Positions 6,150 through 26,100 of a DNA stretch of 46,013 nt are shown here, one piece after another. The position numbers and the translations under genes are program-made. Below the pieces are notes generated by a model. The model was not told the DNA's origin. It saw only the letters and a program-made list of their open reading frames with translations, and did no database searches. The stretch is taken from positions 1-46,013 of IMG/VR virus record IMGVR_UViG_3300024348_000080; one strand, given 5' to 3'. The number at the start of each line of letters is the position of its first letter. Position 1 is the first letter of the stretch. The DNA comes from a virus.

Positions 6150-9100
6150 ATGCCACAAGATCCTATAATTGCATTATTACAAAGTCAAGGATTAGATCCT
6201 TTTACAAAATCTAAACCACTTTCAGGATTAGAAAGTGCTACCAACTTAACCAGAGCTGCTGAAGTAAGTGGTGCTGCTTTTCAGCCCTTTGAATCACAGT
6301 TAGCTATTGGTAAAGGAGTACAAAGTATTTTAGAGGCAGACGTTCAAGCAGCTAACGCTAACGTAAGTACTGCTCTTGCAATGGGTAATGCTAAAGATTT
6401 AGGATTTACACTTCCACAGATAGCAGATATAGACTTAAATACTAAGAATGAATTAAAAGATTCTGCTGATATTCTTAACAGGGTTCTAAGAGAAGGTACT
6501 ATTGAAGAGAGTCAAGCAGCTTTAAGTGAGCTTAGGGATAAATACAATCGTGTTGCAAACTCTAGTCTAGGTAGTAAGGGTAAAGATACACTCAGAAAGT
6601 CTTATGGAGAGTTAGTAGATAGGGTTAATCAAATCAATACTTCTAAGTTAGCTAAGAGTCAAGCAGATGCTTACTTTGCTGAGAACTCTTTAGAAGACAG
6701 AGAGAAGATGTTAGCTAATCCTAATGCTAATCAAAGATTATCTTTAAACATTAAATCTAAACAAAGTAGAAATGCTGACATCCTTAATGGGTTAGCTGAC
6801 TTTGAATCTCACAAAGTAGGTTCTAGATTATACAACGAAGAAGACTTAGCTACCTTTAAGTCTACTTACGTAAAGACTGATGATGATCTATACGCAGGTA
6901 TGGAGATGCAGTACAACTACGCAATGAAAGGTGCAGTAGATGAGAAAGTAGCAAACTATCAAAAACAAATTTCAGACATTGATGCACAGATTAAACAATC
7001 TATGAATCAAGACCAGAAGAATTCTTTGGCTTTACAGAAAGCAAACATAAACAAAGAACTTACCTATTCTAAAAATTTAAGTAACAAATTAAAACCTTAT
7101 ACCCTAGAAGATAATTACTTAAAACAATTTTATCCTGAGCAATATACTCGCAAGAAAGAAAGAGAAAAGCAAGAAGTATACAGGAATGAAATGTGGGCTG
7201 AGGGAGATCAAGGTTCTGTAGGAGAAACTTTATACAGATCAGGTCAACAAATTAAATCTAACTTCCTTAAACAAGTAGCAGGCTTAGCTTATCTAGGGGG
7301 TGCTAATGAGTTAGGGTATCGTATTAAGTCAGGTGCAGAGTATGCAGCTCCTCCAACTTATTTTGTTGGTAAAGACTTAAATAAAAACAATAAGATTGAT
7401 GACGCAGAGATTACTCGTGATATCCACGGAGACAGAGTAACCATGAGTCAAGTAAGTTGGACAGATAAGAACGGTAATAAAACTTGGAATCTATGGGCTT
7501 CTGTAGAACAAGTACTTCCTATTGCAACTGACGTAGCAACTACTATACTTTTATCTAAAGGTGTAGGAGCTATTGGAAGAGGTGCAGGATTAACTTATGG
7601 AAGAATAGGAGCAGCTGCAGGATTAAGTGAAGCAGGTACTGCTACATTTATTAAGAGTGTTGCTCCACGTATTTCTACTATGGGTGTAGTTACAGCAACT
7701 ACGTTTCCTAGATTCTATGCAGAAGAACGTTCTAACTTTAAAGACGGAAATACAGCATTTAACGTAGCTCTTATGAGAGCAGGGGTAGAAGGTCTTACTG
7801 AGACTATTGTACCTGATGTTAACATGTTTAGTGGTAAGATTGCTTATGGTGCTTTAGATGGCGCTTTTGCTAAACTAGGTAAACTAGATCCTGCAAGTTT
7901 AAGTCGTTTAACTACTCAAAGAGATTTACTATTGGGACTTCTTCCTAAGGGAGCCTTAAGTCCTACTAAAGCTGCTTTACTTATGGCACCTGCAGCAATA
8001 CGTAGAACTTTAAGTGGTGCTACTCAGGAGTCTGTAGAAGAATTAGGTTCTCTTGTAGGAAACTATTTTGTAGATAAATATGCTTCTTCTCAAAACTTTG
8101 AAGTAGAAGAAACTAATCAACTTACAGGTGATGCTTTCTTAGATACATTTGTAGAAGGATTTATTCCATCTTTATTTATTTCAGGAGCAACTAACTTAGC
8201 ATCTAAAGGTGCTATGAAACAAGAACGTTTAGGTCAAGCAAGGTGGAACATTGCAAACAATCCTGAAAAGTACAAACAGTTAGTTGCTAATAAAGTACAA
8301 GCAGGAAAACTCACCAAAGAAGAAGGACTAAAACAAACAGCAGCAGTAGATAACCTTTCCAAAAGGCTAGACTCTATGACTGATATGAAGAACATTAAGA
8401 ATCTAACAAACCTGTTAGACGATAAAGAACTTCAGTTTCAATATTTCAACAATTCTATGTTTCAGGAAGACTTGTTGAATGTAGACACTACCCAACTTTC
8501 TCCTGAGCAACTAACAGAGTACCAAGACTCTCTTGCTAAAACTAGTAAAGAGATACTTACTACGAAAAAACTTTCAGATAAATATACTGGCTTAGAAGAA
8601 ACTGATAAGAGGGAAATTATTTCTAAATTATTTAATAGTCAGGCAAAAGCTGCTATTAGTCCTGATACTAGGATGACTTCTTTGTTAGGTATTGCTGAAC
8701 AAACAAGGCAGTCTTTATTGACTGTTCCTGTAGCAGATGAAAGATATCAGTTTGTAAACGAAGAGTATAAGAAATTTCAAGATCAAGTTGATGCAAACAT
8801 TGTTGCTAGGGTAACTAACTTTAAAACTACTTTAGAAAACAACCCAGAACAACTTACAGCTTTAGAGTTAGCAATGGCAAAGGAAACTTATATGCCTGCT
8901 TTAGAGAGAATGGAAGCTATTGATGCTGGGTTTAGTTTAGCTAACTCTCCTATTGCTCCTCAACAAGGGCCTAAAACATTTGATGAGTCTGTGCCTGAGT
9001 TGGTACAATCAATTCAAGCTGAATTAAGTACTAGACAAATCTTAACTACGGATGATTTTCAAACAGAGATTCCTAAGAACTTAAGAAATCCTGAAACTAA

Positions 9101-12100
9101 AAGTATGCAAGAACAACAACTTGCAGTTTCTGAATTATCAGAAAATGAGTTGGCTACAGGAGAACTAGAAGAAGGTGCTCATGATCACTTAACAGATAAT
9201 CAAAAATTTATTCTTGCTATTGAGTTAGATGCTCATAAAACAGAAAAGGCAGAGAATCCAAATACTCTTACCGACTTAGAAAATGATATAATCTCTAATC
9301 GTAAAAACCTTTATAGTCTTTCTACTAGAGGATTATCTGCTGAAAATACTAGAGCAAGAATTATAGAAATGAATAAGGCTGCTATGGAGATTGCTCCAAG
9401 CACACCTGAAGTAAATAACTTTTCGCCTAACCCTGTAGTTACAGATACTAGTAGAACTCCTGAGCCTATAGTAAATGTTCCAGGTCAACTAGACGAAGTA
9501 GATAGAGAGATCTATACTCAATACTCTAACTACTTGGCTGAGTTTAATCAACAGTTAGCAGACTATGATCCATCTGCTGATGAGACTCGTACAATGATAG
9601 CTGAGTTTAACAAAAGTCTTTTTGATGGACTATTGACTTTAGATTCTTTAAATGCAGTTAGGTCTGCTTTACTTGCTATTTACCCTCAAAACATATTAGC
9701 TGTTGAAGCTATGTATGAAGCAGCTAAGCAAGGTAACATAAACTTAGACACAATAGAACTTAGTCCTAAGAAAAGAGAAAGACTTGCTGCTCATTTAGAA
9801 AACCTTATAGGAGAGGCACAGTCTATATCTACTTCTACAGATACTAGGGCTGATATAGAAAGAAGAAGACAAGAAGAATTAGATAAAACTAATGCTCAAA
9901 TTGAACGTGTAGAAAAAAGAGGTGATTCTTTTATTAGAACAAAAATTGAAGTTTATACTGCTTTAAGTGGTAATGAAACATTAGATGAAATTAGAATAAT
10001 TACATTTAAAGATGGAAGTAGAATATTTACAAAAACAGATGTTAAAACAGGACAATTAATTCTTGATGAAAAAATAAAAAAAGAAAATACTACTACAAAT
10101 GAAAAGTTTATTGAAGAGTGGGTTGGTAATTTAGATAATAGTTTAAAGAAAATAGCAGAAGATAACAATCCAAATAAAACTGTTATAGATAAAATCAATG
10201 CTAAGTATGATGCCGAACTGACTGCTTTAGAACAACCTATACCTACTGAAGTATTAGAAGAAGCACCAGAAGTTATAGAGGACGAAGAGACTATTCAATC
10301 AGACAACTATGACTCAGCACAGGGATCTGATAAAACACAATCTACAGATCCTCTCAAAAAATTTAAAGGATTAGAACTTCAGTTAATATCTGTCACAAAG
10401 GAGAATGTAGCTCTTAACGATCCAGCAGTACAACTTGCTTATAACATTATGGATTCTTATTCTGAGTCTAAACGTTTAGGAAAGGCTGTTAACATGGATG
10501 TTAGGATTCAAAGCATGATGGGTATATATGAGTTTGTATTACCTGCAGGATCAGTAGAAAGGCTTAACGAACTTAAACAACTTAAGTCTCTTAGTGAGGA
10601 AGAGAAGGCAGAACTTAGGAAACTACTATCTGTAAATAATCTTTCCATTCATAATGAAGGGATTTTATTATTCTTAGAAAATAATCCTTCTAAAATAGGA
10701 ACTGGGGTGGGTAGTGTGTTTATAGACTCTGATAATAACTTACTTAAGTTTACATCTAAGGGAAAACCATCTACTAATAAGAATGCTTATGTATTTGTTC
10801 CTGCTATTAAGAACACAGGAATACCAGAAGAACAAGCAATTAGACAAAGAGTTAGTAAGGGTGAGATTTTAAAATCTTCAATTACAGGTATTGTATCAGG
10901 ATTTGACAAACCTACGTCTTTAACTAAGGCAGTAGGAGAAAAGATTTATGTACATACAGGACCTGCCTTTACTATTAAAGGAGCTGAAAAAGATTTTACA
11001 GTTAAACCTGGTGTTGTTTATCTACAAAATGAAAATGCTCGTTATCAATATACAGGTGTAAATATTCCTACTAATGGTAATGATATTCAAATACTTGTTA
11101 ATGCTTTTAACGAAGGTACTTTGCCTGATACTATTGATAAGTCTATTAGAGAAGATGCAGCATTATTTTTAAACTATCTAAATAGACAAATAAATTCTAC
11201 TAAAGTAGGTAAAGAAAATACTTTAAAAATTAGATTCTTTAAAGCCGCTAATTTATTCTTGTCAACGACTAATGATAATAAATTAGTAGTAAAGTATCAA
11301 GTAAAAGGTAAAGATGGTAAAAAATACTTAAAACCGTCTAAGAATCAAAAAGAAGATTTAGAAAAAATAGGACAATTATCTTACAAGTTAGTAGATGCAA
11401 GATTCTTAGAAGATGATAAACCTTATACTGCTTTAGTAGTAGATGCTAAAGGTAAGATAAGTACTAAGTTATTTAACTCTTACTCTGACTTTATTAAGAG
11501 CCCTGAGTTTGGAGCAAACTATGAAAGAGAAGAGAATAGAACATTTTCTTTTAGTCCAGAACTTGTTTCTCTTAATGCACCTTCAGTTGCTGTAGATGAC
11601 ATAGATACAACTCCTAACGCTCCTATTAGTGACATACCTGTTGCTCCAAAGCAACTTGACTTGCTTATGGACCAGCCTAGATTAACTTCAGAACAATTAT
11701 CAGAAGTAGAAGCAAGAGCAACAAGACAGCGTGAAATTGAACAAGGAAATGCACTAGATGAAGAGCAACTTTACAGAGAGTACTTACAAGAGAAAGAGGC
11801 TTTTAGAACATTAGATTTACCTCTTGAAGGAATGGCTTTAGAAGGAAATAGAATAAGTAGAGATTCTTTTGTAAGATTTGCAGATAAAGCAAATCTACAA
11901 GGAAGAGAAGGTAAAGCAATTATATTTGCTTACATAGGTAAAAGAGGAGAAGGAGTAGGAGTAGATGAAGTAGCACGTATAGGGTCAGGTATTTCAGATA
12001 AAGAAGTAACTGCCCAAAACATTATAGACTTTATCTTACGTTATCCAGGAGGTATTGGAGGTCCAACTTCTAAATCAACTACTACTTATTTTGGAGCTAA

Positions 12101-15100
12101 TAATCCTGATATTAATCCGAGGTATGCTAATATTAAAAGCACAGCTAAAGTACAAGAAGCTCCTAGAAGGCTTAGTAGAATAGCTATTCTTAATGCCCAA
12201 CGAGGAGGAGAAGCGCCTACCAGTGAAGATCCTTACTTGTTTAGAGAAAAATCTTTAAGTAATTCTATTACGGCTAGACAGAATGCCTTAGCAAAAGCTT
12301 GGGTAGCTAGTAATCCTATATTTAAAAACACTCCTTTCATCTTTGATGAAACTATTAGCCATCCTGAAGCATATGCTGTATGGTCTAAGGCAGGTATCTT
12401 CTTATATGAAGGAGCTAACTATGCAGAAGCTTACCATGAAGCATGGCATGAATTCTCTCAGTTGTACTTAACACCTGAACAGAAAGAAGCTTTGTATGCA
12501 GAAGCAAGAGCAATCTACGGAAACTTACCTTTTGTACAATTGGAAGAAAGATTAGCAGATGATTTCCGTGCCTATGCTTTGAGTGGAGGTGTAACAATGC
12601 CTGAGTCTTTTAAGAAAGCTACGGAATCTAAATCTATATTTAAACAGATTTGGGACTTTATTACTAACCTGTTCTCAAATAAAAAGACAGTTGACCATTA
12701 CTTCTCTCGTTTGTACAAAGGAAACCTTAACGAATTTAAACGTAAAGAATCTAATCAATACTTCAAACAACTTTATTCTGGGAAGTATACTTTCAATGAC
12801 GACCAGGGAGTAAGTCATGCTCTTTCTTATGTAGACTCTAAAAAATACTTAGATGACCTAGACAGTCTTTATGTATCTACTGCTAATACTATGTCTAAAG
12901 ACAAAGGATTTACCTTTGTTAACATACTAGCTAATCCTAAAGAAGCCAACCTAGTTTATTCTATGATGGCTAAGCAACTATACTCAGAATATGATGAGTT
13001 ATTAGAGATGTATGAAGAGGAGAAGAACAGAGAGTACATTCCACGCATTAATGCTATTGCAGATATTTTAGAAAACTTTGAAGCTACACAAAGATTCCAT
13101 AAACAAAACTCTTTCTTGTTTGAAGACAAGGTTAGAAAAGAACTTTTAAATAATCAAGTAATTGATTTAGAAAGTGTGAACTCTGAATTTGCTGCATATG
13201 AGGCTAGCGTAAACGAAATGTCTCAGAAGCAGTTGGCTTCACAAGCTTTAATTAGTGCTCTTAGAACGCTTCCTAAGTATGAAAACGGAGTAAAGTTATT
13301 CCATCCTGTATTTGGAACTGCTCTGTTGAGTGACTTTAGTGCTAACTGGAACATCTTACAACGTAGGTTGTCGGGAGTAAACTCTTACTCAGAACTCTTT
13401 TCTAGAATAGAAAGCATTGCTGAAGTATATCCTCAGTTCACACAGTTCTTGTCTTACTTGCCAACTCCAGAAGAGAACCTAGTTCTTACAAGTGACTTAA
13501 ACTTTAAGAATGAATTCTATCGTATCTTTAGTATGCCTTACATTGAAGGATACACTACAGACATTAAAAGAAATGAGAATGGAGAGATTACTGATGTTAG
13601 GATATTCCAAGCACAGTCATTAGACTCTCAAAACATTAAACGTTCTTATGATTCGGCTTTCTCTCTTAATCCTTCTGAGTTCTCCCTAGTTAACAGCGAG
13701 ACAGGTACAGCATACCTAAACACACCAAAGTACTTTAAAACTTTCCCAGGTATTCCTGCAGTACCTATTGATGAGGAAGATTTTGAAGACTACAATAATT
13801 CTTTATATAGAATGTTAACTCCATTAGGATTTAACTTAAGTCCTAATTCTATTGAGTTATTTTTAAAAGAAGATCCTACAGTTCAGGCAGGTAGAGTAAC
13901 TTTAATCTATAACAAACTTAAAGCACTTTCTGAGTCACAAGCTTACATTGCAACTCCTTTGGCAAGCATTTCTTCTGCTCATATTGTTGAGGATAAGGGA
14001 ACTAAAAGAAAAATAGATGGTGAAAATAGTAGCGTATCTAACATTATCCAGTATGAAGTAGAGGCTAACCCTCAGTACGTTAATGACATGCGTTACAATG
14101 CAGTACAGAAACAAATCTGGTCTGTAAACCAACACACTTTAATGACTAGAGTTCTTGGAGTATTAAATGATGAACTTACTTATCCTACATTAGAGAATGT
14201 TTATGACGAACTTCCTCACTTAGATCCTAGAAACAATCCTAATACTATAGGTTCTTTTGTATTGTCTTATTTGTTTAAGGCAAACGGAGAACGTTATTCA
14301 GATACTATACAAGGACAAGAAGTTTATAGGAAGGTAGAGTTAGGTAACCTGTTAGGAATTAAAGATAAAGGAGAAGGTGAAAAGACAATTGATTCTAACC
14401 AGGCTAAAAAACATTATGCTGATGTTGTAGGATTAGTTAAGTCAGGAGTAGAAGAACTTAACCGTCTTAGTGGTAAGGCAACTACTAGAGGATTAATACT
14501 TGATCTTCGGTTAAGAAAGTTTTTAGGCTTCAGTAATTCTACTAACCAAGTAGATGAGTTTCTTTCTGAGGGACCAGTTCAAGTTCCTAAAAGTTTATTT
14601 GTAAGTAAGATTCTTCCTCTTATCAAATCTGAAATTGAGGTTACTCGTAAGAACTCTGACAAATATGAAATTAAACCTTTAGATAAAGATGGTACTCCTA
14701 AGCTTGCTTACTTCCAAGACATCTTTAGTTCAGAACAAAGAAAAGCTTTATACTCTGCATACACTACTGGAGATTCTACAAAGTCTTTAGAGGATGTATT
14801 TGATCAAATGCCTGAGAAAGACGAAATACTTAAGAAGTTTAGAGAACATATTGCTAACAATGTATCTCTTTCAGAAGATATATTAGGTACAATCTATCCT
14901 GTAGACAAAGTAGATTTATTTAAGTATCACTTTTTCTCTTTTATTTCTCGTATTGAACAACATAAACTATTCTTTAATCACCCTTACTACTACAAGAACG
15001 TTAAAGATATTGAAAAGCGTTTGAGTATGTGGAACGCTTTTGGTTCTTACCCTGTGATTGATCAGCAAAACATGGACTACTTGTTATCAGATAGGTCAGG

Positions 15101-18100
15101 TTTAAGTATGTATTCTCATAGAGATGCTTTTCATGCTCACGCAGATCAAGTAGGAATAAAAGTAAACGCTAATAGAGCTGCAGTAGATCAAATCTCTTAT
15201 CTTGTTTTAGAGGATGAGCCTATTAAATCGGCTACAGCAAAAGCAAGTAAGTTCTATGGTAAGTACAAAGATGCTTACACAAAGGATCTTAAGTCAGAAA
15301 AACAAAATGCTGCAGCTTTCTGTACATTAGATTTTTACCGTAAGTTCTTTGCTTTGTCTACAGGTCTTACTCTTCCGATGAGGCAGGAGTTTGATCGCCA
15401 AGATAAAATTTATAAAAAGTATTTAGAGTTACAAAGAGCAGACGAGTTCAACAGAGAGCAGATTACTAAAGAATTAGAAGCAGAGCTAAACAAAGGACCC
15501 TTCTATAAGTTTACTATTAAGAAACTTCAGTATGCAGGTCATAACAAGATAGAAAGTGGAGAGTCAGTTCCTGTAGGTCATAAGTATTCTATGAAGCCTA
15601 TTCTTCCTTCTGAGATTATAGCTGATCCTAAACTTGCTTCTATTCTTCAAAAACTTCATGCCTCTTCTGCAGAATATGCAGTATTTAAATCAGGTACTAA
15701 GTTGTCTGAGACAGTTGAGCCTGTAAAGTTGTTTAACTCTAAAGGAGAAGTACAAGATCAAGCAGTACCAGTAGGTTTGATTGATCTTAAGAATATCAAA
15801 GAACAAGTACTGATTGAGAATAAAGAAGACTTTAACAACATCTTCAGTACTCAGTTCCGTAAACTTGTATATAAAGATATAACTACTCCTGAAGGAGAAG
15901 CGTTGTATGAGTCTTACAAGTCTATTATTAAAAATCTTACTGGCTTTGATAAGCTTAACTTCTTAGAACAGTTAGATGATAAAGAAAAACTTGTAGAGTT
16001 TTTGATTCGTGAAATCTCTAAGAAGAATGCAGCAGAGTCTACTAAGGATCTTTTTAAATTAAAAGGTGATGGTACTTTAACTCACAGTCTTGATAGTATG
16101 ATTGACCGTACTATTATGGAGAGTGCTGTTGTATCTAGTGTTAAGAACCAGATTATTAAGCAAAAACTTCCTGGTGCACAAAGAGTACAGTATCCTGTAT
16201 CTTTGATTAGACCTTCAAGGCAGTTAAGATTCTACGATATAGTAGATGGTAAAGTAACTAAGGCTGAAGTCATAGTATCTTTCTCAAAAGGATACTACTC
16301 TTTACTTAGTCTTCTGTCACCTGTAGACAAACAACCTATTGGTCAGCTAGACAACGAAGGTAAGGTAATAAATCCTCATACTGCACTTACTCGTTTAAAT
16401 GAAGCACTTGCTAATCCTAAGTTTAGAAGTCGTTACTCTAATCAACTTACTATGGAAGCTATTCGTATTCCTGGAGAAACATATCACTCTATGGAGAACT
16501 TTGAGATTGTAGAGTTCTTACCTGAAGAAAGCGGAGAGATTATTCTAGTTCCTGATGAACTCGTAATTAAGTCTGGTGGTGATTTTGATATTGATAAGTT
16601 GTTCTGCTACGATGCTGTGTTGAATGCAGACGGAAGTTTTGTATACGGTCCTGAAATTAATCCAGAACAAGCTTTTGAATTAAAGAAAAGTCTTATAAAC
16701 AAACTACAAGAGAATAAAGAATTGTTTAGAGAGTTCTATCAAGAAAAACAGGATCTTATTCAAGACTTACAAGATATTCTTGTTAAGCGTGGTATCTCTG
16801 CAGACACTAAAGTAGCTGATTTATATATAGAACTTATTTCTTATAAGTATGTAAACGAACAAGAACTTGTAGATGAAGGATCAATTACTGAAACAGATCA
16901 AGAAAAACTTAGAAAGTGGGCAGCAGGAGAAATTACTCCTGAAAAGAAAGATCTCTCTAAAGAGATTAAAAATAGACTTAAAGTACTTAGAGCCACCTTA
17001 TCAGAGATATCGTCTGAGGGACTGTCTCAGGAGCTTACACAGATCAATAACAAGCTTAGAGTAATTGCACAAGAAGGAAGAGATATTAAAAATGACTTAA
17101 AGAATCTTAGAGGTCGATTTACAAACAGACTACTTCTTAATATCTCTAATCGTTTATCTCAACCTGAAATCTTTGAATCCTTAATCGCACCTAACGATAT
17201 TGCTACTATTAAAGAAGCAGTAAACCGATTTGGTACTGCTTCAAAAGTTACTACAGCTTCTCTTACAAATCTTGTTAGCCCTCTTTACCAGTTATATGTA
17301 TTCTCTTTGAATACTTATAAGACTTCTTTGGGTACTGATGCTAAGAATAACGTATTCCATGCACTACTCCAAAGAACTACTTTCTACAGAGAGGATGAAA
17401 AAGGTAACAGAAAATATCTTTTAGATGCAAATAGAACTATAGATGGATTCTTAAACTTCAGTGGTGTATACAATGTAGATGGCGGTAAAATATCTAACAT
17501 ATCAGGGGAGATGATTAGCGCTCACGTAGATATTGAAAAGAACGATGGTATAGCTCAGATTGGACTTAACAACGTAGTCACTCCTGTAGTTAACTATGCT
17601 AACATGGCAGGTACTAGACTCTTTGATATGGTGAAGTTAGTTAACTTAACTGACGGTTATGTTAACCCTAAAACAGGAGTTAAGAGAACTTCATCTATTA
17701 TAAAATACTCTAGAAAAAAATCTATAGACGAAGTTTTAGAGACTGCGGCTAATAATGCACCTGAAGGTAGTGTAGTTAGGGATTTGATTGAAACATCTAA
17801 AGACAAGTACGGAATGATTAGTCGTAACAAGTTTATTAACAATGTGTTTAATCAAATGTTAAAAAATACTACAGCAGAAACTACTTTACAGTTAATGCTT
17901 ACAGTAGAAGATTCTGTACAGGATCTTAGAAGATTTGCACAGTTTCTTGAATTAGAAGATCAAACAAGAGATCTAGCTACGATTTCATTGGCTACAGACT
18001 ATGATACATTCTCTCCTCAAAACTTTGAATCGTTTAGATCTAACATCTTAAGCTTGGTTCCATATCTTAAAGAAGGAGGAGAAAAAGCAGGTATCTTTAA

Positions 18101-20105
18101 CAAACAAGGTTTAGAAGATATCATAAATAATTCAATTGTTGCTCCTTTCCAGGTGCAGCAAGATGTTCTGGATAAGTTTGTTGAAGTATTCCCTATCTCT
18201 GCTAATCCTAAGATTACAAATACTATTCTTAAAAAGTATGCAATAGCTCAAAAGATAAATAAAAAATTAGACTACGATAAGTTTTCTCGTACATTTAAAA
18301 ACGATTTACTTTATGCTTTGTACATTAACAATGTACCACAGGTAGTTCAGTTTGAGACTTACTTAGATAAGAGAAGTCCTGCAAACTTAGCAACTATGCT
18401 TACTAACCTTAAGAGTAGATTACTTAATAGAGGTATCTCTGCTGATAACATTATGTTTGATATCATGAGTGCAACTACAGATGTTGACTCTAAGTATATT
18501 AGGACAGGAGTGTTAGATACAGACTTAGACTATTCAGTTGATATGTATAAGGAAGAGTTTGAGAAAGGATTTAACTGGTCTCACTCTGAGCTAGATCCTA
18601 CAAATCCTGTAGACTCTGAACTTATTGGAGATATGCAAGCTTTCTTTAAAGCATTTGCTTACGCAGGTATTATGGGAAGTCAGTTGAACAAGAAGTTTGA
18701 TTCTTACTTGCCTTTGATTCCTGAATCTATTTATACTCTTCCTATGACTTCAATCATTGAAGGCTTTGCTAGAGATTTAAATACTACGGAATCTGCTACT
18801 CAACCATCTACTAGTGTTAAAGGATTCCAAGGATACCAAGGTGGTTTTGAAAACATAGGTAAAGGAACTCCACAAGGAGATGGTAAGGATAAAGCAATGA
18901 GACAAGTTGCTAATGTATTTATAGGAGAACTTTCTAAGAATGGTAAAGGCTCTACTTTGACTTCTGCTAAAGAAATAGCTCAAAAACAAGGAGAAGAACC
19001 TAATACTTCAGGAGCAAGATATCTAGATGGAGACAAGAATAAATATGTTAATGAGATACATTCGGCTTCTATTAAACTAAAAGGTCAATCTTTAGTTGCA
19101 ATGCTAGCAAGAAATGGAAAGCTTGCAGGACAAGTGTTGTCTGCAGAGACAAAAAGAAAAATTAAAGGACTATCCGAACAAGGAGCAACTTTTGTAGTAG
19201 GAGACATGCCTGGGGTAGATTCTCAATTTATAGATTACTTACAAGAAATAGGGGCTAAGTTTACTATTTATCATACAGGTTCTACATCTAGAATTCAAGT
19301 AAAACAACCTACTCAATCATCTACTAGTGTTGAAGTAATTCCTCTAAATGAATCACAAAGATTTACTAGAGAATCAGCTGAAAAAGATACAGAGTATATG
19401 TATTTATTTACAGATAATGCTGGTAGAACGTCAGGCTCAGGAGTTATTGATCCTAACAGTTGGTATGCTAAAAAATATGGTGCAGATAAAAAATATGCAA
19501 GTAAAACACAAGCTGTAGCAAGAGGTCTTAAAAATGTTTATCCTATTACTACAATGGTAGATGATAAGAGAACTCAATGGACAGATGACCAATTTAATGA
19601 ATACAAGAAAATTATTGATGATGAAATAGAAACTATTAAACAGGCATCTAAGAAGTATAATGGTATTAAGTTTGGTGCAGAAATGCCTTTTGGTAAAGGT
19701 GCTATTTCTAATATGAAAGACAGTGCTCCTAAAATATGGAATTATCTTAATACAAAACTTGCTGAAATAGGTATTGATAATACGGGAGATATACCTGTAT
19801 CTACTCAACCATCTACTAGTATCGAAGAAAGTTTCTTTAAAGACTTTATAATTAGATTTAATGAAAACCATCCAGAGTTCCGTAATCTAGAAGTTCCTAA
19901 AACTATGACGTACTACAAAGACTATCTTCTGTCTAGAGAGAACGTTGTAGCTCAGTATGAAGCATCTATACAAAGTATTACTAAAACTTCTGATGCTGAA
20001 TCTCAACAAATGACTTTAGAGTTACCAGTAGATAATAGCTTTGGATTGAAAGATTCTTTTGCTAGCCTACGTGAGATTGATAACAACTTACGTAAAAACT
20101 GTTGA
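6150..20105 (+). CDS. Giant virion RNA polymerase polyprotein (crAss-like, DFDID motif), 4651 aa
   Basis: Seen in order: a helical N-terminus; a Gly/Ala-rich hydrophobic segment (about 450-520, ending GVVTATTFPRF) that may contact membrane; Glu-rich helical regions; a zincin-like motif YHEAWHEF with first His at 2096 and a downstream ERLADDFRAY that could give the third ligand; then the RNA polymerase region with RIPGETYHSMENFEIVEFLP leading to VIKSGGDFDIDKLF, catalytic Asp at 3478, 3480 and 3482. The DFDxD form is that of YonO and crAss-like virion RNA polymerases, which are single-chain relatives of cellular RNAP. Residues about 4224-4550 hold a SLOG-like and a TDN..RTSG domain between QPSTS-type repeats. 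Known biology: in Cellulophaga phage phi14:2 the homologue is packaged and transcribes early genes. This protein is far longer than that roughly 2200-aa homologue. Cleavage after synthesis is possible but not shown. Confidence 0.88.
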   Translation: MPQDPIIALLQSQGLDPFTKSKPLSGLESATNLTRAAEVSGAAFQPFESQLAIGKGVQSILEADVQAANANVSTALAMGNAKDLGFTLPQIADIDLNTKNELKDSADILNRVLREGTIEESQAALSELRDKYNRVANSSLGSKGKDTLRKSYGELVDRVNQINTSKLAKSQADAYFAENSLEDREKMLANPNANQRLSLNIKSKQSRNADILNGLADFESHKVGSRLYNEEDLATFKSTYVKTDDDLYAGMEMQYNYAMKGAVDEKVANYQKQISDIDAQIKQSMNQDQKNSLALQKANINKELTYSKNLSNKLKPYTLEDNYLKQFYPEQYTRKKEREKQEVYRNEMWAEGDQGSVGETLYRSGQQIKSNFLKQVAGLAYLGGANELGYRIKSGAEYAAPPTYFVGKDLNKNNKIDDAEITRDIHGDRVTMSQVSWTDKNGNKTWNLWASVEQVLPIATDVATTILLSKGVGAIGRGAGLTYGRIGAAAGLSEAGTATFIKSVAPRISTMGVVTATTFPRFYAEERSNFKDGNTAFNVALMRAGVEGLTETIVPDVNMFSGKIAYGALDGAFAKLGKLDPASLSRLTTQRDLLLGLLPKGALSPTKAALLMAPAAIRRTLSGATQESVEELGSLVGNYFVDKYASSQNFEVEETNQLTGDAFLDTFVEGFIPSLFISGATNLASKGAMKQERLGQARWNIANNPEKYKQLVANKVQAGKLTKEEGLKQTAAVDNLSKRLDSMTDMKNIKNLTNLLDDKELQFQYFNNSMFQEDLLNVDTTQLSPEQLTEYQDSLAKTSKEILTTKKLSDKYTGLEETDKREIISKLFNSQAKAAISPDTRMTSLLGIAEQTRQSLLTVPVADERYQFVNEEYKKFQDQVDANIVARVTNFKTTLENNPEQLTALELAMAKETYMPALERMEAIDAGFSLANSPIAPQQGPKTFDESVPELVQSIQAELSTRQILTTDDFQTEIPKNLRNPETKSMQEQQLAVSELSENELATGELEEGAHDHLTDNQKFILAIELDAHKTEKAENPNTLTDLENDIISNRKNLYSLSTRGLSAENTRARIIEMNKAAMEIAPSTPEVNNFSPNPVVTDTSRTPEPIVNVPGQLDEVDREIYTQYSNYLAEFNQQLADYDPSADETRTMIAEFNKSLFDGLLTLDSLNAVRSALLAIYPQNILAVEAMYEAAKQGNINLDTIELSPKKRERLAAHLENLIGEAQSISTSTDTRADIERRRQEELDKTNAQIERVEKRGDSFIRTKIEVYTALSGNETLDEIRIITFKDGSRIFTKTDVKTGQLILDEKIKKENTTTNEKFIEEWVGNLDNSLKKIAEDNNPNKTVIDKINAKYDAELTALEQPIPTEVLEEAPEVIEDEETIQSDNYDSAQGSDKTQSTDPLKKFKGLELQLISVTKENVALNDPAVQLAYNIMDSYSESKRLGKAVNMDVRIQSMMGIYEFVLPAGSVERLNELKQLKSLSEEEKAELRKLLSVNNLSIHNEGILLFLENNPSKIGTGVGSVFIDSDNNLLKFTSKGKPSTNKNAYVFVPAIKNTGIPEEQAIRQRVSKGEILKSSITGIVSGFDKPTSLTKAVGEKIYVHTGPAFTIKGAEKDFTVKPGVVYLQNENARYQYTGVNIPTNGNDIQILVNAFNEGTLPDTIDKSIREDAALFLNYLNRQINSTKVGKENTLKIRFFKAANLFLSTTNDNKLVVKYQVKGKDGKKYLKPSKNQKEDLEKIGQLSYKLVDARFLEDDKPYTALVVDAKGKISTKLFNSYSDFIKSPEFGANYEREENRTFSFSPELVSLNAPSVAVDDIDTTPNAPISDIPVAPKQLDLLMDQPRLTSEQLSEVEARATRQREIEQGNALDEEQLYREYLQEKEAFRTLDLPLEGMALEGNRISRDSFVRFADKANLQGREGKAIIFAYIGKRGEGVGVDEVARIGSGISDKEVTAQNIIDFILRYPGGIGGPTSKSTTTYFGANNPDINPRYANIKSTAKVQEAPRRLSRIAILNAQRGGEAPTSEDPYLFREKSLSNSITARQNALAKAWVASNPIFKNTPFIFDETISHPEAYAVWSKAGIFLYEGANYAEAYHEAWHEFSQLYLTPEQKEALYAEARAIYGNLPFVQLEERLADDFRAYALSGGVTMPESFKKATESKSIFKQIWDFITNLFSNKKTVDHYFSRLYKGNLNEFKRKESNQYFKQLYSGKYTFNDDQGVSHALSYVDSKKYLDDLDSLYVSTANTMSKDKGFTFVNILANPKEANLVYSMMAKQLYSEYDELLEMYEEEKNREYIPRINAIADILENFEATQRFHKQNSFLFEDKVRKELLNNQVIDLESVNSEFAAYEASVNEMSQKQLASQALISALRTLPKYENGVKLFHPVFGTALLSDFSANWNILQRRLSGVNSYSELFSRIESIAEVYPQFTQFLSYLPTPEENLVLTSDLNFKNEFYRIFSMPYIEGYTTDIKRNENGEITDVRIFQAQSLDSQNIKRSYDSAFSLNPSEFSLVNSETGTAYLNTPKYFKTFPGIPAVPIDEEDFEDYNNSLYRMLTPLGFNLSPNSIELFLKEDPTVQAGRVTLIYNKLKALSESQAYIATPLASISSAHIVEDKGTKRKIDGENSSVSNIIQYEVEANPQYVNDMRYNAVQKQIWSVNQHTLMTRVLGVLNDELTYPTLENVYDELPHLDPRNNPNTIGSFVLSYLFKANGERYSDTIQGQEVYRKVELGNLLGIKDKGEGEKTIDSNQAKKHYADVVGLVKSGVEELNRLSGKATTRGLILDLRLRKFLGFSNSTNQVDEFLSEGPVQVPKSLFVSKILPLIKSEIEVTRKNSDKYEIKPLDKDGTPKLAYFQDIFSSEQRKALYSAYTTGDSTKSLEDVFDQMPEKDEILKKFREHIANNVSLSEDILGTIYPVDKVDLFKYHFFSFISRIEQHKLFFNHPYYYKNVKDIEKRLSMWNAFGSYPVIDQQNMDYLLSDRSGLSMYSHRDAFHAHADQVGIKVNANRAAVDQISYLVLEDEPIKSATAKASKFYGKYKDAYTKDLKSEKQNAAAFCTLDFYRKFFALSTGLTLPMRQEFDRQDKIYKKYLELQRADEFNREQITKELEAELNKGPFYKFTIKKLQYAGHNKIESGESVPVGHKYSMKPILPSEIIADPKLASILQKLHASSAEYAVFKSGTKLSETVEPVKLFNSKGEVQDQAVPVGLIDLKNIKEQVLIENKEDFNNIFSTQFRKLVYKDITTPEGEALYESYKSIIKNLTGFDKLNFLEQLDDKEKLVEFLIREISKKNAAESTKDLFKLKGDGTLTHSLDSMIDRTIMESAVVSSVKNQIIKQKLPGAQRVQYPVSLIRPSRQLRFYDIVDGKVTKAEVIVSFSKGYYSLLSLLSPVDKQPIGQLDNEGKVINPHTALTRLNEALANPKFRSRYSNQLTMEAIRIPGETYHSMENFEIVEFLPEESGEIILVPDELVIKSGGDFDIDKLFCYDAVLNADGSFVYGPEINPEQAFELKKSLINKLQENKELFREFYQEKQDLIQDLQDILVKRGISADTKVADLYIELISYKYVNEQELVDEGSITETDQEKLRKWAAGEITPEKKDLSKEIKNRLKVLRATLSEISSEGLSQELTQINNKLRVIAQEGRDIKNDLKNLRGRFTNRLLLNISNRLSQPEIFESLIAPNDIATIKEAVNRFGTASKVTTASLTNLVSPLYQLYVFSLNTYKTSLGTDAKNNVFHALLQRTTFYREDEKGNRKYLLDANRTIDGFLNFSGVYNVDGGKISNISGEMISAHVDIEKNDGIAQIGLNNVVTPVVNYANMAGTRLFDMVKLVNLTDGYVNPKTGVKRTSSIIKYSRKKSIDEVLETAANNAPEGSVVRDLIETSKDKYGMISRNKFINNVFNQMLKNTTAETTLQLMLTVEDSVQDLRRFAQFLELEDQTRDLATISLATDYDTFSPQNFESFRSNILSLVPYLKEGGEKAGIFNKQGLEDIINNSIVAPFQVQQDVLDKFVEVFPISANPKITNTILKKYAIAQKINKKLDYDKFSRTFKNDLLYALYINNVPQVVQFETYLDKRSPANLATMLTNLKSRLLNRGISADNIMFDIMSATTDVDSKYIRTGVLDTDLDYSVDMYKEEFEKGFNWSHSELDPTNPVDSELIGDMQAFFKAFAYAGIMGSQLNKKFDSYLPLIPESIYTLPMTSIIEGFARDLNTTESATQPSTSVKGFQGYQGGFENIGKGTPQGDGKDKAMRQVANVFIGELSKNGKGSTLTSAKEIAQKQGEEPNTSGARYLDGDKNKYVNEIHSASIKLKGQSLVAMLARNGKLAGQVLSAETKRKIKGLSEQGATFVVGDMPGVDSQFIDYLQEIGAKFTIYHTGSTSRIQVKQPTQSSTSVEVIPLNESQRFTRESAEKDTEYMYLFTDNAGRTSGSGVIDPNSWYAKKYGADKKYASKTQAVARGLKNVYPITTMVDDKRTQWTDDQFNEYKKIIDDEIETIKQASKKYNGIKFGAEMPFGKGAISNMKDSAPKIWNYLNTKLAEIGIDNTGDIPVSTQPSTSIEESFFKDFIIRFNENHPEFRNLEVPKTMTYYKDYLLSRENVVAQYEASIQSITKTSDAESQQMTLELPVDNSFGLKDSFASLREIDNNLRKNC
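12405..12600 (+). other. Zincin-like metalloprotease motif inside the 4651-aa protein
   Basis: HEAWHE starts at residue 2096 (12435), within AEAYHEAWHEFSQLYLTPEQ. About 37 residues later comes QLEERLADDFRAYALSGG, whose Glu/Asp would supply the third zinc ligand, as in other HExxH..E..AD.F proteins of large phages. The motif and spacing are seen; protease activity is inferred. Confidence 0.65.
16440..16640 (+). other. RNA polymerase catalytic loop (DFDID) region
   Basis: GGDFDIDKLF lies at residues 3476-3485, codons 16575-16604. It follows a beta-rich stretch with RIPGETYHSMENFEIVEF and ILVPDELVIKSG, the usual run-in to the second double-psi barrel of DFDxD-type polymerases. All three Asp that should hold the catalytic Mg are present. 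Confidence 0.9.
18796..18818 (+). repeat. Linker direct repeat, copy 1
   Basis: Contains CTACTCAACCATCTACTAGT (18796-18815) followed by GTT, encoding the linker TQPSTSV. It is in frame, identical over 20 bases to copy 3, and differs from copy 2 at one base. Confidence 0.85.
18990..19300 (+). other. SLOG-like (DprA/YspA-type) domain in the 4651-aa protein
   Basis: Residues about 4285-4385 read GARYLDGDKNKYVNEIHSAS, LAGQVLSAETKRKIKGLSEQ, then ATFVVGDMPGVDSQFIDYLQ followed by EIGAKFTIYHTG. The pattern of hydrophobic strand, GDxxGVD, helix, then GA/strand is the Rossmann-like nucleotide-binding core of SLOG proteins (DprA, YspA/DUF2493, LOG, TIR-linked sensors). Those families bind nucleotides, NAD-derived molecules or DNA. 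The ligand here is unknown. Confidence 0.6.
19309..19331 (+). repeat. Linker direct repeat, copy 2
   Basis: Same 20-mer as copies 1 and 3 with a single C-to-T change (CAATCA in place of CAACCA), followed by GTT. It encodes TQSSTSV and lies 513 bp after copy 1 and 492 bp before copy 3. Confidence 0.85.
19374..19795 (+). other. TDN..RTSG domain in the 4651-aa protein
   Basis: Residues about 4410-4548 begin with YMYLFTDNAGRTSGSGVIDP, then WYAKKYGADKKYASKTQAVARGL, NVYPITTMVDDKRTQWTDDQ, and end with GIKFGAEMPFGKGAISNMKD and APKIWNYLNTKLAEIGIDNTG. I recognise this as a small stand-alone domain seen in other phages and bacteria. Its layout recalls macro-like or A1S_2505-type domains (F.FTDN/FGSN start, Gly-rich loop, YPI(P)TxxxD, xFxx.FGxGxI), but I cannot name it with certainty. 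Ligand binding is inferred only from that resemblance. Confidence 0.5.
19801..19823 (+). repeat. Linker direct repeat, copy 3
   Basis: CTACTCAACCATCTACTAGT, identical to copy 1 over 20 bases, then ATC. It encodes TQPSTSI at the end of the TDN..RTSG domain. The C-terminal tail of the protein (about 95 aa) follows. Confidence 0.85.
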
Positions 20106-20146: not shown

Positions 20147-23100
20147 ATGTTTTGTCCTAACCTATCAGACCCTAATATAAAAGCTCAGTTTGAGTCACTT
20201 CAATCTATTGTCCCAGAATATGCTTATTATCTCTGGGATAAGTATCAAGGAGAAGTACCTGCTAAGTACTATAATCTAAGTAAACTATCTCCTAGCCTAG
20301 GTACATCTGTTGATACTGTTCAGAATGCTATTAAAAACAGTTTACCTGTTGAAGTTAGTAGTATCGTGAACGTAGTAGAAACTGTTCCCTTAGATGTATT
20401 AGGAAGAGAGGATCTATTCCTTTCTATGAAACAAATCTTAAATGAGAATGGTATTAGGGATGAAGTTTTAATTAACTGGGCTGGTAAAAACAAGGCAGCA
20501 ATTGGTAATATCAAAAAGTTTAAGTCTACAGTACAATTAGAAGGGGTAGTAGAAAGTATTTACAATAGTAAAAGTAAGCCAGAGAATCACATAGAACTTA
20601 AACTTAATCCTTTAGCGTTAGAGAGTTTTAACAAATGGGTAAAAGCTTTGGAAAAATACCCAATACCTTTTAGAGATTTAATGTTAACTCATGCTATTAA
20701 GTATTTAAATCCACAAAGAAGGTCTAAGTATGTTCTACAGTTAAGTGATGTAGCATTACAAAATGCTTATGGTATAGTTGTAAACAAACCCCATGAAGCA
20801 AATAGGATAGGTAAACTTTACGATCAAGAAGTATTAGCTACTCTATCAGATGCAGTTGAACATGAACCTTCTGCGAGTGGTAAAGGTTATTGGGTTCATA
20901 TTCCAAATACTCAGAAGAAAAATTTTGGATTTAACACTTACGAAGACTTTAAAAAAGATACAGAACGTCAAATTGCTTCTTTAGACTTTCGTATAAAAGA
21001 CTTATTAGAAAAAAGTAATCCAGAATATTACAGTAATTTACTTGCAGAATTAGAAGAATTAAAAAGTAAAAAACCTGTTTTTTATACACAAGAACCTAGT
21101 CTTAACAGAGAAGAAGCTAATAGTTATGGATTTGAAGAGTTTGAATACGTAAGAGTTGAAAGTAGTTATGGTAGAGGCGAGAATCCTTTTCAAGAATACT
21201 TAGGCTTGAACTACAAAGGATATTATATACATGGTTATAACACACAACAGGGTAGACCTGGTACAAAAGTTATTCCTATAACAAAAAAACAAGCAGAAGA
21301 GATTTGGAATAGACGTATTGTAGATTATCCTTTCGGGGTATACGAAGTTAAGGATTACCAAAAAATATATAGTTTACAACAACAAATTGAATGGAATAAT
21401 CCTGAAAGAAATCTAAAAGAATTACAAGAAGCAGAAGACGAAAAAAGTAAATTAAACCAAAAATTTAATTCTATTTCTCCTTCTGACTGGGACAGTGAAG
21501 AAGCAAGTCAGTATAGAACAAACGTAGATACTCTCAGAAAGTTATCTCCTGCTACTTGGTGTACTTCTGGTTCTATGACAGAACATTACGTAGAAAACTA
21601 CGATAATTATCTATTGATTGTAGATGGAGTTACTGTTGCGGGGATTGAAGCTGATCCACTATCTAAAATAGAAGATAAAGAAAGTCTTTTAAAGAGTCTT
21701 AATAGAATAAATACCGCTATTGAAAATGGAGTTGCAGACCCTGCTCAATATACGGATAAAGATAAAATTGAAAGAATTTTATCAGGAAATGCTTCTATTA
21801 CAAAAAGAAAAGTAAAAGAAGTCACCTCTCGTGCTAACAACGGGGTAGCTCCTATAAATCACTTAGACGATATAATAGCTTTTTTTGAGAAACATAACTT
21901 AGATTTAAATAATCGTTCTGTTAAACAAGCGCAACAATTAAAGTCTCAAGGAAAAGTAGATTCTGAATATCAAGAAGAGGATAGGGACTACTACGAAGGA
22001 CCTTACGATTATGAAGAACCCTTTGATTATGAAGGAGATGTATATTTGGAACGTCCAAATGAAGAAGATTATGCAATAGCTTTAGAAGAAGGTAGAAGAC
22101 GAGAGATTGCACGAGAATTAGTTTCTGTAGAAGATACTTTAGAGAATCTTCCTTTACTGGCAACTCCTGGAAGATATAATGTTTTTTCTTACATAAATCA
22201 AGCACTTAGAAATGATGAAAGAGTAGCAAGAGCTGCGGTTGGTCTTGATCCACATAATATAAATCATATAGCTAGTAATCGTACATTTTACGCAGAACTT
22301 GCAATTCAAGCTGTTAATGCAAATCCTGCTGTATGGGTATATTTACCTCAAGAAGGTAAGGATTTACCTGGTCTAGAATTAGTATACACAACATGGGCTG
22401 ATGCAAATTATCCAATTGATGACCTACCTTTTTCTAAAACTAATACTAATCAAATACAAGGATACTACGATGCTAAGACTGACAAAGTTGTAGTAGTAGC
22501 ATCTAATGTTTCTAAAGAAGAAGCTCCTAAGGTTGCCATTCATGAAGTAGCCCACAGAGGTATGATTAGAATGGCTAAAGACTTAAAAGGAACAAAAGAA
22601 CTTTATCAAGTATTGACTAACTCTGAGAGAGAGTTAATGAAGAAACTACCTGATTTATTAAAAAGAACTGGACATACAAATGTAGAAAACTTACTAAAAG
22701 ATTATGGATTTAATATAGAGTCAGAGGAAGGTAAAGCAAAACTTTTAATGGAGTTAGCTGCAAGATGGGCAGAGACTTTAGTAAATAAACCTAAGCCTTC
22801 TTGGTGGAAACAATTCTTAACAGGTATTCAGCAATGGGTAACTAAATTTACAGGTAAAACTTTAAATGAAGATGAAGTAAATGAGTTAGTTGGAGGATTT
22901 GTTAGATATGGTTCTCAGGTTAAACAAGACATGCCTTCTACCATGTTTAGTAGGAAGGATGCTAAGTTTGTATCTGATAGGTTTATTCGATTAGAAAGAC
23001 AATACGACTTTCTTAAGGAGTCTCAGATGGATTCTGAGTATTGGAACCTTCCTAGTATATCTGCCAAGAAACAATACCTAGCTAAGAAACAGTTTGATAC

Positions 23101-26100
23101 TGTTGTTAAATTAATAGAAGGTAGAGATTCTGTAGAAGTAATTAATAATAAGATTTACTTGTCTCCTACTAAAGCAGTTGAAGGAGGTAAAGTTCTTTAT
23201 GGCTATGCGTCAGGTTTAGCTGAGGATATAAATAAGATGTATCCGTTAGTAACAGACTCTTCTCCTGCTTATGTTAGACAAGAGGCTAATGGAAGAACTT
23301 ATGTAGAGTTTGACTTAACTGGTCGCTATGCAACCCTATTAGTAGAGGGAGTAGCATTCTTAGAAGAGGAAACTATGAGGGCAGAGATTGAACTAATGGA
23401 TATCCAAGATGCTATTCGTAAAGAAAAAGCAGCTATCATGGAGAAGTTAGAGTCTGCTAATGAAGTAGTCATTGACGGAGAAGTGTATGCTTACACAGGT
23501 TCAATGTTCCAAAAAGGATTTGCATTAACTCAAGCTTTAAAGGAACCAAAGATTAAAGATTATACTAAGTTACTTAACAAATTAGTTTCTAGATTCCCAG
23601 GAGTTACGTGGAAGTGGAACACTGATATTGTTGAGGCAGCAAAAGTAAACCTAGCTACAGGACAAATAGAAATTAATCCTACTCTTATACAAGAAGATAC
23701 TCCTTGGCATGAGTTTGGACACTTTGTAGTTAGAGGAATTAGAGAATCTAATCCTGAATTGTTTGAACAGCTTAAGAAAGAGATAGAGGCATTACACAAT
23801 GAAGCTCCAACCTCCTCTTCTTATTCTCGTGTAGAAGCTTCTTATCCTGAGTATGTAGGAACAGATTCATTCTGGGAAGAAGCAATTGTTACAGAATTAG
23901 GAAGACAGGCTGCTAGAAAAGAAAACAGAAGTTTGTTTGATAAAGTACTTGATTGGTTTAAATCTTTAATAAACGACTTGGGAGGAAAGAATACACAACA
24001 ATTGGCTATGTCTAATCTAGTAGATTCTTTAGTAGATCCTAGTGTTACTTTTGACACAGAGTTTAACGAAGAAGCAGTAAGCGACTATATGTTCCAAAGG
24101 ATTGTTCCTGCAGAAGAAGTCGATGCACTTACCAGTTATGTAAAGATTTCGCCTAATGATCCTTTTGTATTTAAAGATTACGCAGAGAAAGTACAAGTAA
24201 TTGCTAACGCTATCAGTGAGACTGAGTTCAAAAAGATTTTAGATACTAACAAATACTTAGGATTAGGTAGTGAGTCTCTGCAAAGAGCATTAGCTGCTAT
24301 CAGAGAAGTTAAGAACATTGTAACCAAAGAAGATGTAGCTGCTTCTGTATTAGAACTTGCAGACTACTTACAGTATAATGCACTTTACTTGACAGGAGTA
24401 GTTCGTCACTTAAATAACATTATTGAAGATCCAAATATTCCCTCTGGTAAAAAACTAGGAGATTTGCATAGAGGTTACAAACAAGCTTTAGCTATTGAAA
24501 AGCATATCAAGAAGATAGAAGAGTTGTTTACTACTCGTGCTTTAGATGAGATGATGCGTAGTGAAGTTCAAAAAGATGCTTTTCTTAAGAATCTTTCTTG
24601 GATGCGTACAGCAATTGCTACTATTAAGAATGGTCACAACAATAAAATAATTGATCCTGTAATAGATGAACTTGCTGAAACTTTTAAAGGACAGTCTAAA
24701 GATATTGAAGCTTCTTTTGATAGAGACATAGATAAACTTAAGTCAAGAACACAGACAGATACTATTCTCAAAAGAATTAAAGAGTTAGAAAAAGAAAAAC
24801 AAGATAGCTTACTTACTCCTGAGAACATTAAAAAGTTCTTGGCAGATAGTAATTCTCCTTGGTACTTAGCTATTGACTCTGCAATGGCTACTAAGAACCC
24901 AGGAGTTCAATTAATTGCTAACTATATAAGAAGTATCAATAACGAGTTTCAGGAAAACTTAAAACCTATTGCTAGTGAGTGGCAGGATCTTATGGATGAC
25001 ATTGCTGCTAGTGAAGGAGGATTTGTAGGTTCTGCATTGAAAACTAAGAAATTCTTTGAACCATTTATTAGAGAGACAGTTCTATATGAAGTTATTGACG
25101 GAGAGTTAGTTAAAGATAAAAAGGTTCTTTCGCTTAACACAGAAGTTAAAACAGTTGAGTTAGGCAATAGAATTACTGAACTGAAACATGCAATTGATTT
25201 CGGAGCAACTGAGGAAATTAGAGAACAAGCAGAAGAAGATCTTAAGAAGTTTTACGAAGAGTATACAGAACGTCCATTCACAGACGATTATTACGAGATC
25301 CAGAAACTTCTTCCAGATGATATTAAATTTAAACGTAATCAAATTTATCAAGAACTTGCAGCAATCAGAGAAGAGTTTGGTACAGGTATCATTGAAGATG
25401 AGATTCTAGAACGCCTAAGAGATAAAGAACAAGAACTTTACGAGTTAGAAAGACTTTACACAGAGGATGGAACTCTTAAAGAGGGAAAACCTTTAGAAGA
25501 TGCATTAGCTATTCAGGCTTGGAAAGAAGGTAAGAGATCTGCTGATGTTGTAAGTTTTGTTCTTACTCCTGACAGTAAGTCTGTATTTGAGAGAATGCTT
25601 GTAGATAAGAAAGCACAGTTAGCTAAAGCTTTAGCATCAGCAAAGATTCCTCAACAAAGAGAAGATGCACATAAAGCTTATAATAACTGGGCAAGTATTT
25701 ATACAAGAACAGTATATACTCAAGAGTTTTATGATACAAGACAAGATATCTTAGACGAAATCCAAGAGTTACTTAGTGATAGAGGTTCGTTGAGTGATAA
25801 GTACTCTGAGTTATTTAATCTTTTGTTAGGTACAAGAGATACCAATGGTGTGTACAATCCTGTAAATGTTACAGACAAACAAGTACAGAAGGCAAAAGAA
25901 GTAGAAGAAGAGATTGAAGAGATTAAAGCCTTGCTTAAGCAGGATAGTCCGCTTAGTCTTCCTGTAAAAACAAGACTAGGACAACTCATAGAACAATTAC
26001 AAGCACTTCAGAGTAATGTAAACTCTGAATACTATACTAACGCTGTAGACAATCAATTAAAAACAATCAGAACTAAAGTATTTACAGAACATACTGATTG

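Follow-up and report, generated by a model that had tools for sequence, protein, structure and literature searches.

Domain cassettes bounded by a shared translated DNA linker in a giant crAss-like RNA polymerase

The virus record IMGVR_UViG_3300024348_000080 (IMG/VR; positions 1 to 46,013, the whole 46,013-base stretch, hereafter the window) encodes, in an open reading frame (ORF) of 4651 aa (6150–20105, + strand), a giant RNA polymerase of the crAss-like type, the C-terminal part of which carries two domain cassettes bounded by three copies of a short translated linker. Comparison with other phages (the records analysed here are IMG/VR contigs, cited by our own handles) shows, as judged from the DNA identities given below, that domain cassettes are exchanged between distantly related phages. 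We consider that this proceeds by homology-directed swapping of domain cassettes, helped by the shared 23-bp linker, in a polymerase that is probably delivered with the virion, and give this reading a probability of about 0.72. The ORF was recognised from the ORF list, from its similarity to records of crAss-like phages (73 phage records gave hits that were weak yet significant, several of them annotated as RNA polymerase), and from the motif GGDFDIDKL, which is of the DxDxD type (residues 3476–3484; 16575–16601, +).

When the whole window was searched on both strands with up to 3 mismatches, a 20-mer was found exactly three times, at 18796–18815 (0 mismatches), 19309–19328 (1), and 19801–19820 (0); the chance expectation is 0.01 matches, and 0 of 100 shuffles gave three. 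The spacings of 513 and 492 are each a multiple of 3, and the three copies share one frame of the giant ORF, in which they encode the peptides TQPSTS, TQSSTS, and TQPSTS. Linker copy 1 (18796–18818, +), the 20-mer plus GTT, represents the 23-bp conserved unit; copy 2 (19309–19331, +) has one base changed (CCA to TCA, P to S), and copy 3 (19801–19823, +) has the 20-mer followed by ATC in place of GTT. Three in-frame 20-bp direct repeats had been claimed in an earlier reading of the window from its letters alone (the sequence-only reading), and the mismatch search, the shuffles, and the ORF frame bear this out. A chance origin of the repeats was ruled out by window shuffles, a reversed-pattern control, and the spacing test.

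The same reading assigned one compact domain to each interval, which agrees with the lengths of 165 and 158 aa and with separate structure models; its label 'SLOG-like' for the first domain was not confirmed. Cassette 1 (18816–19310, +), an alpha/beta domain of the form 'GFQGYQGG..PQGDGKDK', is recognised by DNA identity to L151 (95.7%, 18796–19301) and L152 (92.2%, 18796–19310) and by its structure model (165 aa, pLDDT 82). It has no Pfam match, no PHROGs match, and no confident PDB fold among the matches listed (best Foldseek E 0.03). Its best VIA row is a phosphatase (Z 5.7, 92 residues, 3.0 Å), and the row for Moco carrier protein, which we take to be SLOG-related, reaches Z 4.1 (103 residues, 3.5 Å) with many others tied. 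Because cassette 1 is without a family or confident fold, 'SLOG-like' stays unproven for it. In two relatives of cassette 1, L157 and L062, the first 121 and last 135 aligned bases are 87–91% identical to the window cassette and the middle is unaligned, a pattern that, on these alignments, is mosaicism inside a domain. Cassette 2 (19329–19802, +) is probably a divergent DUF7831 domain, as indicated by the PF25176 profile (25.4 bits, E 1.3e-5, below the Pfam gathering cut-off of 27); it is recognised by DNA identity to L019, L111, and L110 (98.4–99.4%) and by its structure model (157 aa modelled, pLDDT 94). It has no confident PDB match among those listed; its nine best VIA rows are macro domains, yet their Z is only 3.6–4.4, and tblastn returned three gut crAss records with 36–41% identity. 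The linker-borne loci L247:261-1025 and L250:4747-5157 score 130.6 and 124.9 on DUF7831 and form a separate cluster.

The region between the outer linkers behaves as a slot in an otherwise conserved protein. Polymerase backbone lies immediately upstream (18700–18791, +; 81.5% DNA identity to L002) and again past the slot (ENHPEFR .. NNLRKNC, 19832–20105, +; defined by the L002 match and by relatives' protein tails), where 19832–19996 is 84.8% identical to L002 in DNA (the query ended at 20000); L002 matches the window up to 18791 and resumes at 19832, and nothing aligns between. A scan with the polymerase tail yielded 18 loci, 12 of them orthologous tails (L002–L013), of which nine were compared in protein and L003, L007, and L009 were placed by DNA comparison (over the piece compared, L003 aligns in the manner of L002, and L007 and L009 do not differ from L006). 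At the slot position, L002, L004, and L013 carry an 'FVFGSN' domain, which has no Pfam match and which we take to be 'macro-like', and the slot is empty in L005, L006, L008, L010, L011, and L012; the TQPSTS motif is absent from the orthologous ORFs L002–L013. Relatives therefore do not carry the same two domains, and the exchangeable C-terminal slot that the sequence-only reading had envisaged is upheld, in that close relatives hold another domain, or none, between conserved flanks. Near the C-terminus is a further slot, occupied by an oxygenase-like domain in L002 and L006 and by other domains in L004, L013, L011, and L012, and empty in L005, L008, and L010. L006 and L008 differ in frame by 777 bases (259 codons; a segment of 823 bases in L006 vs. 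46 in L008), with 91–92% DNA identity to either side, and about 55 bases into the L006 segment lies an eroded linker, three mismatches from the 20-mer. From this eroded linker on, the inserted domain is 78–79% identical to L084 and L228 and 68% identical to L097, the protein of which is a 2OG-Fe(II) oxygenase by Pfam.

Evidence for exchange between phages comes from cassette 2, which at the DNA level is 99.4% identical to G004, 99.2% to G001, and 98.4% to G006, phages whose polymerase core proteins are 28% (285 residues), 33% (64 residues), and 26% (267 residues) identical to that of the window. The similarity of cassette 2 in the window ends at the linkers, and the flanks of shared cassettes have no DNA match. 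Across seven window pairs, 11 of 14 window-side block ends fall within a linker or at most 2 bases from one, the remaining three being 10, 12, and 31 bases off. Similar boundaries occur in other pairs: G033 and G035 are 93–96% identical in DNA to 7 bases before the first linker and then carry six internal cassettes vs. one; G006 and G018 are 82% identical up to 9 bases before the first linker, followed by unlike cassettes; and G007 and G038 are 94.2% identical up to one of the G038 linkers, which is 299 bases from the nearest G007 linker. G018 and G031 (96.8% identical) differ by a 405-base in-frame segment ahead of a linker, past which the next cassette is 99.7% shared before the two diverge again. 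Of the sequence-only reading's proposal of recent duplication or recombination, exchange between phages is supported by the 98–99% cassette identity, and duplication was rejected as the origin because the two window cassettes belong to different families.

The linker is widespread in viral records. An 18-base core of the repeat was found in 85 IMG/VR stretches as 105 copies, all in one reading frame, and 92 of these copies lie in an open frame of at least 400 aa. Sixteen stretches have two to four copies, with 20/20 spacings divisible by 3; the equal-spacing pairs L039/L060, L055/L061, and L073/L103 look like shared lineages. The reversed-pattern control gave 38 stretches, none of them multi-copy. 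A crAss-like RNA polymerase (E 0.001 or better) is present in 64 of 83 distinct linker records vs. 4 of 38 control records, the latter being shorter on average, and among records of at least 20 kb in 61/72 vs. 4/21. The polymerase-positive linker records comprise 37/41 in a first set (36 hand-picked from the pattern list and five from the protein scan) and 27/42 in the remainder. In the 40 hand-picked stretches plus the window that were used for comparing linker and motif positions and for pairwise comparisons, linker and polymerase motif lie within one ORF in 30 of 41, and the linkers are C-terminal to the motif in 27 of these 30 (N-terminal in G019, G027, and G028); up to seven linkers occur in one whole record. 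In an unsupervised search, ORFs with the linker contained 126 in-frame repeats vs. 46.2 expected. A search for the 20-mer beside other domains, suggested by the sequence-only reading, thus succeeded on a large scale in viral records. One record, G029, has a one-mismatch linker core (C1:56872-56887) about 22 kb from its polymerase array. A cellular origin of the linker was rejected: in genome_contigs the 18-mer occurs in 14 stretches as 16 copies, in mixed frames (10, 5, and 1) and with no spaced array, and one of these stretches, L263, is a tandem 18-base repeat.

Linker to linker, 38 internal cassettes of 132–325 aa fall into 16 families, 11 of them recurrent (G019 and G005, of the same lineages as G027 and G006, were left out of the counts). 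At E 0.001, Pfam assigns six cassettes to DUF7831, four to 2OG-Fe(II) oxygenase, four to cpYpsA, which is a SLOG family, and one to NADAR; a DprA-like family accounts for 2/38. We take DprA to be part of SLOG, and 2OG-FeII_Oxy_2 is presumably AlkB-like. Families recur across genomes, orders, and positions; the 'NPLVEAG' family, for one, is present in G027, G033, and G040, and G021 has a more distant member. Linker-bearing ORFs of other phages thus include 2OG oxygenase, cpYpsA, NADAR, and DUF7831 domains, and unrelated cassettes have the linker in common. In L247:261-1025 a DUF7831 domain is apparently nested in a cassette of the KPTIDLSREW.. type, which occurs without DUF7831 in L244:1112-1489. 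The same DUF7831-type domain also lies in the gut crAss phage cr130_1 (L001:7987-8439), within a giant protein whose annotation is DprA-like and where a single in-frame stop is read with TAG as an amino acid. Around position 5001 of L125, L126, and L129, a DUF7831-like domain may stand alone as a gene that begins at an ATG of its own behind a stop codon; such free-standing genes are a possible source of cassettes.

Several observations weigh against linker-assisted exchange. No recombination event is directly observed, and no recombinase was identified in the records searched. The linker is common but not required, and the bounded state is a common special case: among protein-fetched relatives scored for linkers (23 of 41 DUF7831 loci and 24 of 27 cassette-1 loci), a left linker (at most 3 mismatches) is present in 7/23 and 6/24, respectively, a right linker in 3/23 and 1/24, and both in 2/23 and 1/24. 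Cassette domains also adjoin other linkers, sit at protein ends, or possibly form separate genes. In five of the seven window pairs, one end of the partner has no recognised linker nearby: it is incomplete or of another kind there, or is missing. The G033 and G035 backbones rejoin 686–698 bases past the last recognised linker, so that the right junction is not at a linker, and crossovers inside a domain also occur (L157). ORFs without the linker show little repetition (59 in-frame repeats vs. 48.6 expected in the unsupervised search), Pfam gives no family at E 0.001 for at least 23 of the 38 internal cassettes, and an activity has been assigned to neither cassette of the window. The two sets of scored relatives together (cassette ends in L110–L177) have a linker on the left in 13/47 and on the right in 4/47. 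The right linker is unneeded in some cases because the cassette is the last of the protein; the left-side bias must be explained by any full model.

The bias would follow if the linker, mostly the left one, were a passenger of a transferred cassette and crossovers took place elsewhere, a hitch-hiking model that we regard as unlikely. It gains from the greater number of left than right linkers in the relatives scored (7 and 6 vs. 3 and 1), from shared blocks that often take in both window linkers, and from the mosaicism of L157 within cassette 1, which places crossovers inside domains. The linker is, however, common to unrelated cassettes, and the flanks of shared cassettes are without a DNA match. 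Moreover, the one variable base of the linker (C or T) tracks the genome above chance, agreeing within a genome in 54 of 64 pairs vs. 32.7 expected (p under 1e-4), and in 33/43 pairs without G033 (p 0.004), which fits exchange or conversion at linkers.

Site-specific recombination, in which an integrase or resolvase would recognise the 20-mer in the manner of integrons or shufflons, is improbable. A near-invariant short boundary site and arrays of up to six internal cassettes are what such a system would present, and the enzyme could come from the host. Integron gene cassettes form arrays of exchangeable units with a shared short separator, much as the linker arrays do here; the linker arrays differ in that their units are protein domains of a single ORF, and their separator is about 23 bp and translated. 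A tyrosine integrase accompanying the array, the mark of an integron, was not found: Phage_integrase and Resolvase were each detected in 0 of 28 records (25 linker-bearing, the window included, and 3 clade relatives), which may be fragments, whereas the two profiles were found in 14/14 and 10/14 known genomes used as controls. Furthermore, the ends of shared blocks do not fall at a single fixed point, those of the 98–99% blocks varying on the left (19309 or 19318) and on the right (19811 to 19821), and those of the 92% blocks varying more (19280 to 19309, and 19791 to 19818). The site also tolerates C or T at one base, as well as changes at its ends.

It is very improbable that TQPSTS is a conserved processing or docking peptide whose similarity in DNA results from codon bias. 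The linker is always translated in one frame and codon bias is strong, as such a protein constraint would entail, but with the codon usage of the giant ORF, TQPSTS coded twice independently would give the same bases with a probability of about 0.010, and 17 of 19 TQ[PSL]ST peptides in loci fetched by protein are coded ACTCAA[CT][CT]ATCTACT. The codon before the core is NCT in 16/17 core-matching linkers, encoding T, S, P, or A (the remaining linker has GTT, V); residues thus vary, here and at the P/S/L position, while silent bases are fixed, and orthologous ORFs dispense with the motif altogether. The aligned linkers show a sharply conserved block of about 23 bases, in a logo drawn from pattern-selected records, in which inner positions are conserved partly by construction; the TQ[PSL]ST coding count, the preceding-codon test, and the linker count among protein-fetched relatives are free of that selection. 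The claim of the sequence-only reading that the repeats are similar at the DNA level, and not only in protein, therefore withstood a test of codon bias, and the linker data fit a recombination-shaped DNA element better than a protein motif, as far as the coding patterns go. An assembly artefact, by which short repeats led metagenome assemblers to join unrelated phages, is scarcely credible: the linker-bearing records are contigs assembled from metagenomes, and a wrong join at a linker would preserve the frame, but the same arrays are seen again in G019/G027 and G005/G006, which bear different IMG sample numbers and have identical linker positions relative to the motif, L152 and L153 have both cassette and flanks in common, and L006 and L008 differ by a single insert within an otherwise continuous backbone.

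Homology-directed swapping at the linker would operate as follows. Between domains, the near-invariant 23-bp linker CTACTCAAYCATCTACTAGTGTT is translated into a T/S/P-rich peptide, and it may also supply a short stretch of homology at which recombination joins unrelated cassettes with the frame kept, such that cassettes (132–325 aa) would be gained, lost, and swapped among phages as in-frame units. Likely agents are phage single-strand annealing or host RecA-type recombination. The minimal pairing segment is given as 23–27 bp for Red beta and 31–34 for RecA (PMC3945230; here and below, statements on papers cited by PMC number apply to the available parts of each). Because no integrase or resolvase was found in the 28 records and the 23-bp linker is close to the Red beta minimum, annealing-type recombination is favoured; it might take place at the linker during co-infection and be followed by selection for in-frame products. 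The spread of the linker could be self-reinforcing if cassettes that bear it recombine more often and thereby take it along, which would explain one linker common to unrelated domains. We infer that crossovers fall inside the linker, which kind of enzyme acts, that the polymerase is packaged, and that the cassettes have an anti-defence function.

Virions of phi crAss001 contain polymerase-associated proteins, and phi 14:2 carries its enzyme in the particle and transfers it to the host (PMC10172136, PMC7886860); by analogy with these related phages, the window polymerase, which the sequence-only reading called packaged, is probably packaged and injected, and swapped domains would then enter along with the DNA as infection begins. 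Domains of the NADAR, macro, SLOG, and DUF4326 kinds in viruses, in some cases fused, have been proposed to counter NAD-derived host signalling early in infection (PMC9503650). The cassette pool overlaps this list in NADAR and SLOG, so that, again by analogy, early counter-defence is the likeliest role of the swapped domains; the families of NAD/ADP-ribose or nucleotide chemistry (NADAR, YpsA-type SLOG, and DprA-like) and the 2OG-Fe(II) oxygenases would fit it. In that study, viral domains of this kind are typically standalone outside RNA-virus polyproteins, and its available text gives no exchange mechanism and does not contain the term crass (PMC9503650).

The giant protein resembles polyvalent proteins, in which many unrelated conflict domains lie in a large polypeptide thought to be injected with DNA (Iyer et al., 2017; PMC5512222), and it combines at least two unlike domains per polypeptide, as that class does (a polymerase, a DUF7831-like domain, and a further domain in the window). 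The polyvalent set includes N4-type virion polymerases fused to other domains, and cassette recombination is raised for one bacterial locus (PMC5512222); in its available text, the terms crass, linker, and domain shuffling are absent, and no common DNA linker is described. A giant crAss-like polymerase with a DxDxD motif is known from Crassvirales (PMC10172136, PMC7886860, PMC10136315), the motif being a mark of crAss RNA polymerases (PMC7886860), and the 4651-aa ORF, a very large crAss-matching protein with GGDFDIDKL, is of this type. Extreme divergence, variable protein boundaries, and, in some phages, a PDDEXK domain in the large transcription protein have been described (PMC7886860); the available parts of these polymerase papers mention no payload cassettes or shared linker, and the term linker is absent from that of PMC10136315. 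Ongoing shuffling of protein fragments among phages is also the theme of work on domain mosaicism (Smug et al., 2023; PMC10684548), which is agnostic on the genetic process and, in its available text, lacks the terms linker and flank. In polymorphic toxins, C-terminal domains are replaced by recombination with cassettes (PMC3482391); here, by contrast, tandem arrays with one shared linker lie in a polymerase and not at the tip of a secreted toxin. The literature search, including the available part of PMC12386605, returned no earlier report of the shared linker, most subscription papers and bioRxiv being outside its scope. What is new here is thus a polymerase whose arrayed domains are connected through a single translated DNA linker that many phages share, the nearest known kinds being polyvalent proteins and domain mosaicism. 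A broader proposal is more tentative, and we hold it at somewhat less than even odds: that the crAss-like phage community shares a pool of counter-defence cassettes, with the 23-bp translated linker as a recombinase-free, integron-like capture site that recombination keeps uniform, and with the injected polymerase as an open in-frame mounting platform.

Directly downstream of the polymerase ORF, a second giant ORF (20147–28594 of the window) encodes 2815 aa with no Pfam family above cut-off. Other proteins encoded in the window include PolA, a primase, a DnaB-like helicase, an AAA_24 protein, UDG, DUF932, and an exonuclease-like protein; the DUF932 gene lies at 38651–39496, the family is present in 13/28 records searched, and the literature search turned up no role for it. 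A PHROGs search with the first four pieces of the window gave weak matches only, and a DNA search of the phages collection matched one record. In L168 and L167, other repeated short sequences (CCTACTCAACCGTCT and ACAACCTGTAATTCAA) flank domains in giant proteins without the 20-mer.

A slot furnished with such a linker may let phages re-arm quickly against bacterial defences, and cassette exchange may account in part for how large and variable crAss-like polymerases are. The linker offers a concrete DNA-level route for in-frame domain rearrangement, which is usually inferred only from protein mosaics, and recombination of phage modules with little homology becomes directly testable using one short sequence. 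The linker pattern is also a simple search key for payload domains, many of them without a known family, which are candidate injected anti-defence factors.

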